32,981 nt of DNA from an uncultured Clostridia bacterium (lineage in GTDB: Bacteria; Bacillota; Clostridia; TANB77; CAG-508): NCBI GenBank assembly GCA_947625925.1, contig CANQQC010000006.1, positions 1 through 32,981 on the forward strand. Reading direction: 5' to 3'. Position 1 is the first letter of the stretch. Each line of letters opens with the position of its first letter. Position numbers and translations under genes: made by a program. Shown here in pieces: positions 24,779 to 25,931 of the stretch. The notes beneath the pieces are model-generated. The model made no database searches and had not been told where the DNA came from. It worked only from the letters and a program-made list of their open reading frames with translations.

Positions 24779-25931
24779 TTTGTTTTTCTCCTTTCATATC
24801 TATAATCTTTTGATATATTTTACTATATATAATTGATAAAACTATAGAAATAACTAAAACTAAAAATGATATTACAGGGATAGCTAACATATTATTCCAG
24901 TTTCCACCAATTTTACGAATTATTGATAATAATAATTCACATGGTATTATATGAATTAAATATATATATAAAGTTAGTGAAGAAAGTTTAGTTAAATCTT
25001 TTTTTATCTCTAATACAGAAAATCCTTTAAATATCATCATTGAAGAAATTACAATTAAAGGACTTAGTGGAGTTACTAATCTTTCTCCACTGATATTAGT
25101 TAAAATTACTCCTTTTTCTTGCAAAACTCTTAGTTTTACTACAATCAATTCAACTAAGATTCCTAAAACAATCCACAAAATTGATTTTATAATATTTTTA
25201 TCTTTACTTTTAATTCTTATTATATATCCTATCATAAAGTATGCTAAATATTCAAATGATAATCCTATATCCCAATATAAAAAGTGTGAACTAGTATTAA
25301 AACTTATACAAGATAGTATTAAAAATATAATTGACAGTCTAAAAAAGTTTTTTTCTCCAATATCATCCTTTAGTCTTATAACTACTGGAACCAACAAATA
25401 GATTCCTATTAAACTATATAAATACCACATATGATAAATAGGAGCTCCTTTAATCAACCCACTAATACCAATTGTATATATTGTATCTATACTTTTGTTT
25501 TTTATAATAACAAGAAGAATCGCTTTAATAAAACAATATATAAAGTAAATTACTGAAAATATAATTCCATGAATTCCAATATTATTAAAAGATTTTTTAT
25601 AAAAAGCTTTATAATTTTTATTTTTATTATTTGATAATAAAAAAGCACCAGATAACATAAAAAAGCAAGGTACAGCAAATCTTGTTAGTACATTATACAT
25701 GCATGATACAATAATTCCTCTATTATATACTTCTCCAAAAATATTACTATTTGTATATGCTTTAAGATATTTATTTGAAACATGTATAACTATAACTGAT
25801 ATTGCACAAATAATTCTTAATAAATCATAATTATTTTCTCTTTTTACTTTATTATCTTTTAATACATTAGTACCGTGTGTGTGTGTGTGTACAGTATCAA
25901 TACTTTCAGGCTTTTTTAATTTTTCGCTCAT
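24771..25931 (-). CDS. Acyltransferase family 3 integral membrane O-acyltransferase; putatively phase-variable
   Basis: 'NYDLLRIICAISVIVIHVSNKYL', about 10 TM; (AC)8 tract in codons 14-19. Confidence 0.85.
   Translation of the reverse strand: MSEKLKKPESIDTVHTHTHGTNVLKDNKVKRENNYDLLRIICAISVIVIHVSNKYLKAYTNSNIFGEVYNRGIIVSCMYNVLTRFAVPCFFMLSGAFLLSNNKNKNYKAFYKKSFNNIGIHGIIFSVIYFIYCFIKAILLVIIKNKSIDTIYTIGISGLIKGAPIYHMWYLYSLIGIYLLVPVVIRLKDDIGEKNFFRLSIIFLILSCISFNTSSHFLYWDIGLSFEYLAYFMIGYIIRIKSKDKNIIKSILWIVLGILVELIVVKLRVLQEKGVILTNISGERLVTPLSPLIVISSMMIFKGFSVLEIKKDLTKLSSLTLYIYLIHIIPCELLLSIIRKIGGNWNNMLAIPVISFLVLVISIVLSIIYSKIYQKIIDMKGEKQNV
25875..25890. repeat. (GT)8 / (AC)8 dinucleotide microsatellite in the 5' end of the acyltransferase CDS
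   Basis: 16-nt perfect dinucleotide repeat read directly. Confidence 0.98.

Follow-up and report, generated by a model that had tools for sequence, protein, structure and literature searches.

In Campylobacter and Neisseria, many surface-modification genes per genome, including those for acyl- and glycosyltransferases and for restriction-modification, are switched by slippage at repeats. To our knowledge, these simple sequence repeat (SSR) systems use other repeat units than the one considered here and have no common leader cassette. SSR-driven phase-variable surface genes of both genera are covered in two publications (PMC6321876, PMC5953494). Another described system is NeuO of Escherichia coli K1, a phase-variable capsule O-acetyltransferase whose first codons carry a repeat (PMC3046976), and in Streptococcus gallolyticus pil1 experiments showed that the ribosome can block a terminator when the leader peptide is longer (PMC3894217). 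Here, we investigated an (AC)8 tract that lies early in the coding sequence of an acyltransferase, located in a stretch of 32,981 nucleotides (nt; contig CANQQC010000006.1, hereafter the window) of a 1.18-Mb metagenome-assembled genome (MAG; GCA_947625925.1) from an uncultured Clostridia bacterium. On comparison with related sequences, we consider it highly probable that this is a contingency (phase-variation) tract that switches the acyltransferase ON and OFF, here in a lineage of uncultured gut Clostridia rather than in Campylobacter or Neisseria.

NeuO is the closest known counterpart of the window gene: they share a working principle but differ in enzyme family and in repeat. In both, a repeat in the first codons of a (here putative) capsule-modifying O-acyltransferase encodes an added, disordered N-terminal peptide, and the number of units sets whether the product is full-length or truncated (PMC3046976). 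The neuO repeat is the heptanucleotide AAGACTC in a prophage gene, and its product is a soluble left-handed beta-helix enzyme; the window, in contrast, has an AC dinucleotide, a leader common to unrelated genes, and a membrane protein of the Acyl_transf_3 family. The parts of the locus are the following.

24771..25931, minus strand: acyltransferase-3 family membrane protein of 386 amino acids (aa), assembled in the ON register
25875..25890, minus strand: (AC)8 tract, the proposed slippage site, in codons 14-19 of the acyltransferase open reading frame (ORF)
25891..25931, minus strand: 5' leader codons MSEKLKKPESIDTV, with a start-to-tract offset of 41 nt (2 mod 3), giving the V-H-T-H frame
25939..25944, minus strand: Shine-Dalgarno (SD)-like AAGGGG, 7 nt upstream of the ATG
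25893..25904, minus strand: dyad AGTA-TTGA-TACT, immediately 5' of the tract, of uncertain significance
25761..25835, minus strand: first helix, presumed to be the first transmembrane helix (TM1), residues 33-57 with the invariant His50, from model and alignment

The plus strand reads (GT)8 at 25875-25890, that is, a perfect 16-nt (AC)8 on the coding strand, from the last base of codon 14 through the end of codon 19 of ORF 25931->24771, whose coding start is ATG AGC GAA AAA TTA AAA AAG CCT GAA AGT ATT GAT ACT GTA CAC ACA CAC ACA CAC GGT. By scripted repeat-number arithmetic, eight units yield the full-length 386 aa (5, 11, and 14 units are also in frame), seven yield the 20-aa peptide MSEKLKKPESIDTVHTHTRY followed by a stop, and nine yield a 24-aa peptide ending in HTHTHTVLMY and a stop. 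No in-frame ATG, GTG, or TTG follows the tract until the ATG at codon 78 (25698-25700), past TM1, and a restart there would give a product without the first helix and without His50. A preliminary description of this DNA had claimed a tract at these codons, early stops on loss or gain of one AC, and the absence of a start before TM1, all of which the coding strand bears out: the stops come after 20 and 24 aa, and the next start lies past both TM1 and His50. In the whole MAG, only two dinucleotide tracts reach at least 14 nt, namely the (AC)8 of the window and one (AT)8, which lies within a membrane-protein ORF (C27:10968-10983). The chance expectation for (AC)8/(GT)8 is 3.5e-5 per genome under a first-order Markov chain of the MAG.

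In the proposed mechanism, slippage at the dinucleotide repeat would shift the unit number by one or more. One register of three (n = 2 mod 3) would connect the leader to the Acyl_transf_3 enzyme, and the other two would terminate after 18-26 codons. Because there is no usable restart before TM1 and His50, the enzyme would be off in these two registers, and surface-polysaccharide acylation would presumably be switched off together with it.

Although no relative of the window locus itself was found when the window protein was used as the query against genome and metagenome contigs, tracts of the same kind at other loci of the lineage vary in length. We grouped loci with identical 100-nt upstream and 200-nt downstream flanks and obtained six groups, one of which was the same contig twice. 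The AC length differed in all five independent pairs (26/30, 31/19, 29/25, 49/45, and 11/19 nt). In L307/L385, 6463 bp were aligned with zero mismatches and a 4-nt gap in the tract as the sole difference; likewise, L388/L389 differed over 1082 bp, again with zero mismatches, only by an 8-nt tract gap. For two pairs (L311/L365 and L329/L337), contig accessions confirmed separate assemblies, and in the latter the tract was ON for a prepilin-like protein at 49 nt (L329) and OFF at 45 nt (L337), with identical flanks. Among 47 loci in which some register runs at least 100 codons past the tract, 18 were assembled ON and 29 OFF, a set that includes near-identical relatives and in which a few long ORFs may be due to chance.

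Repeats also recur at this place in homologous acyltransferases, namely L017/L119 (AC), L176, L177, L179, and P0061. Genome G108 belongs to a different family of the order, and its homologue of the window protein (43% identity) has an (AG)22 tract at the corresponding position (L002:1421-1502); this homologue is in an OFF register, and P0115, 93% identical to it, is ON with fewer units. The (AG)n replaces the His-Thr repeat by Arg-Glu repeats in this close homologue, and the use of another slippery repeat at the same position argues for selection on switching, not on the His-Thr peptide. A second, genus-wide system of (AG)n tracts was considered and rejected, as there was one such tract in the 29 genomes of that genus, in the acyltransferase. 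The phase-variable switch predicted in the preliminary description is thus supported through relatives, both by hypervariable repeat numbers at otherwise identical loci with ON and OFF registers and by the recurrence of the switch position, once with another dinucleotide. As a separate observation, an acyltransferase homologue in G121 (L004, L022) is broken after the first helix by a frameshift and stops, without a repeat tract.

The protein matches PF01757 Acyl_transf_3 (E 1.4e-38, 133.2 bits, cut-off 31), in agreement with the family assigned to it earlier. In the predicted model (predicted local distance difference test score, pLDDT, 89.4), residues 1-27 are disordered and the first helix, residues 33-57, contains His50, which is invariant across 52 aligned sequences; a PDB fold search with this model gave no significant match. 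A conserved NYDLLR motif is preceded by about 7 residues in most of the 120 best homologues and by 33 in the window protein; the leader is therefore an added extension.

This extension belongs to a larger set. Of the 151 genomes of the genus, 60 had (AC) tracts of at least 7 units, with a maximum of 32 per genome; across the class, GT(AC)7 was present in 9 genomes out of 401, each from the order of the window, and was found in none of the genomes of other orders. All named ones among the GTDB matches listed were MAGs labelled uncultured Clostridia or close to it (Clostridium sp., Clostridiaceae, Eubacteriales, Oscillospiraceae), and several MAGs among these listed matches carried gut or faecal sample names. 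We collected 109 distinct tracts with a tract-only pattern, that is, with no leader in the query: GT or CT(A) preceded the tract in 107, and an SD-preceded start 10-62 nt upstream, open into the tract, was found in 101. The V-H-T-H frame of the window leader is the one in 175 of 193 leaders of this type, and tract plus leader recur at about 200 loci across many different assemblies. The window leader reads MSEKLKKPESIDTVHTHTH, and typical leaders of the set read MKK..SLEAVHTHTH. Judged by its sequence, the window tract is a member of this lineage-wide leader system. In the position of AGTA-TTGA-TACT, other leaders commonly have the dyad AGCC-TTGN-GGCT, from which the window differs by two compensatory changes. 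A structural role for this pre-tract dyad was not adopted, as covariation across leaders was only marginal and the leader set was biased by the search pattern.

Among the genes at the 47 loci with a long register are those for Acyl_transf_3 proteins (L119, L176/L177, L179), TupA-like ATP-grasp, GT87, and N6_N4_Mtase proteins, and prepilin-like proteins; the N6/N4 DNA methyltransferase at L125:1524-2336 follows an (AC)8 leader and was assembled OFF. Leader-like sequence with (AC)n was also seen at type I restriction-modification specificity genes (PF01420; L143:801-1523 and L144:2328-3626), where the tract sits inside the ORF or at its end, which suggests that these tracts may make DNA methylation phase-variable. 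In G190, G035, G053, G187, and G191, many contigs have an (AC) tract no farther than about 150 nt from their end. These ends suggest assembly breaks at repeated or variable leaders, and tract counts per MAG are therefore likely underestimates. Loss of mismatch repair behind the tract-rich genomes was not supported, since MutS was present in all 151 genomes of the genus.

Many leaders of the set have a different layout: they stop soon after the tract, and a strong intrinsic terminator separates them from a prepilin-like gene downstream. At 61 of 63 such loci, at least one register has its stop where the terminator's 5' arm ends, or beyond that point. Exactly one register reaches the stem in 60 of the 63, versus 10.5 +/- 2.9 when the intervening sequence is shuffled; after clustering of similar sequences, the figures are 23 of 26 and 4.4. 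The stem-reaching register is the assembled one in only 7 of the 63 loci. Dozens of near-identical units of promoter, (AC)n leader, terminator, and prepilin-like gene occur per genome at the G190 and G035 loci (L084-L117), and nearly all tracts in G190 are 23 nt and predicted OFF. As in S. gallolyticus pil1/pil3, these paralogous leaders have repeats in a short leader ORF, an intrinsic terminator downstream (PMC3894217), and a long-register stop within the terminator stem, often before pilin-type genes. The pil1/pil3 repeats are GCAGA pentamers at two loci, whereas a single genome of the lineage can have (AC)n with a common leader at as many as 32 loci. The window gene does not fit this pil1-type layout: its leader is fused directly and in frame to the enzyme, with no strong terminator in between (best score 21; attenuator loci score at least 40).

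Several points weigh against a working switch in the window. Variation is known from the loci of relatives, whereas the window's own tract is known from this one assembly; short-read assemblies, in turn, can misjudge tract length by some units. Eight units lie at the short end of the tract set and the MAG encodes MutS, so switching may be slow. The tract is also the only (AC) tract of the MAG and may be a member of the set that is decaying. The small unit number, the presence of MutS, the lack of other AC tracts in the MAG, and the ON assembly would equally suit a neutral relic of phase-variable ancestry, now too short for useful slippage and effectively fixed ON. We regard this as unlikely, because tracts of 11-19 nt already differ between the otherwise identical contigs L388/L389 and because the repeat is perfect although synonymous interruptions would be easy. 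Nor is an artefact of sequencing or assembly a credible explanation; microsatellite lengths are prone to mis-assembly, but the 386-aa frame is open through the tract, and tract and leader stand at about 200 loci in many assemblies, which leaves this a negligible chance.

Two further explanations assign the tract another role. Histidine-rich stretches are able to bind metals, and with the V-H-T-H frame conserved in 175 of 193 leaders, HTHTH might be kept for a protein function of this kind, the DNA repeat being incidental. However, the His-Thr peptide is missing from most acyltransferase homologues, a close homologue has the Arg-Glu repeats of (AG)n instead, and the frame is broken by tract length at many loci; third positions are moreover unvaried, so that the DNA itself is repetitive, beyond the peptide. 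We find a peptide function very improbable. The tract might instead act as a leader or attenuator element, with a His/Thr leader peptide and a terminator, and not as a frame switch of the enzyme, given that many paralogous leaders of the genus precede an intrinsic terminator reached by one register. In the window, by contrast, the leader is in frame with the enzyme, a strong terminator is lacking, and the start of the gene lies 15 nt past the end of the one upstream, and we give attenuation there hardly any credence. A frame switch of the acyltransferase thus remains the reading that we favor. The genes around it are relevant to what such a switch would change.

25947..27596, minus strand: upstream gene of 549 aa, with weak kinase/APH similarity in its C-terminal part, ending 15 nt before the acyltransferase start
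24380..24778, minus strand: HAD-family phosphatase related to the EcbF/BcbF capsule biosynthesis phosphatase (E 2.5e-39, below the NCBIfam cut-off)
23638..24366, minus strand: sugar-phosphate nucleotidyltransferase-like protein, the next gene in the presumed operon

The phosphatase gene and the 3' end of the acyltransferase gene overlap by 8 nt. Nearby genes encode a polysaccharide pyruvyl transferase, the EcbF/BcbF-like HAD protein, a nucleotidyltransferase, and a tyrosine-kinase-like (capsule-type) ATPase. Because of the enzyme family and these neighbors, the substrate of the acyltransferase is likely the O-acyl groups of a surface polysaccharide. A Rho RNA-binding domain was not found in this 80%-complete MAG, and Rho-dependent polarity on downstream genes is therefore not assumed.

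Taken across the lineage, a stereotyped short leader (SD, ATG, ..SLEAV-HTHTH) and (AC)n stand before surface and DNA-modification genes, as a lineage-specific set to which the window gene belongs. A more far-reaching reading, which we put forward tentatively and with more doubt than conviction, is that SD-ATG-..AGCCTTGNGGCTGT(AC)n is a standard portable cassette spread before dozens of unrelated genes, with two modes. Its targets would be unrelated surface, pilin-like, and DNA-methylation genes; its modes would be an in-frame fusion switching translation and a leader peptide switching a transcription terminator. The conserved pre-tract dyad would have a part in controlling slippage or translation, and individual cells would express random mixes of surface features; the same doubt extends to both of these parts.

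In the open literature, with subscription papers outside the scope, searches on phase variation by repeats among Clostridia and gut Firmicutes turned up no earlier account of such a system. What seems new is that uncultured Clostridia have a whole bank of (AC)n leaders built on one design and used in two modes. Repeat-driven phase variation has so far been known mainly from host-adapted pathogens and with other repeat units. This gut Clostridia lineage appears to run a genome-wide switch bank with one dinucleotide and one leader sequence, in which several switches are attenuators and several are direct fusions and which reaches acyltransferases, glycosyltransferases, pilin-like proteins, a DNA methyltransferase, and type I specificity subunits. 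Since the sequence itself shows which register is ON, existing metagenome reads could be used to score the surface-antigen state of a population without culture.
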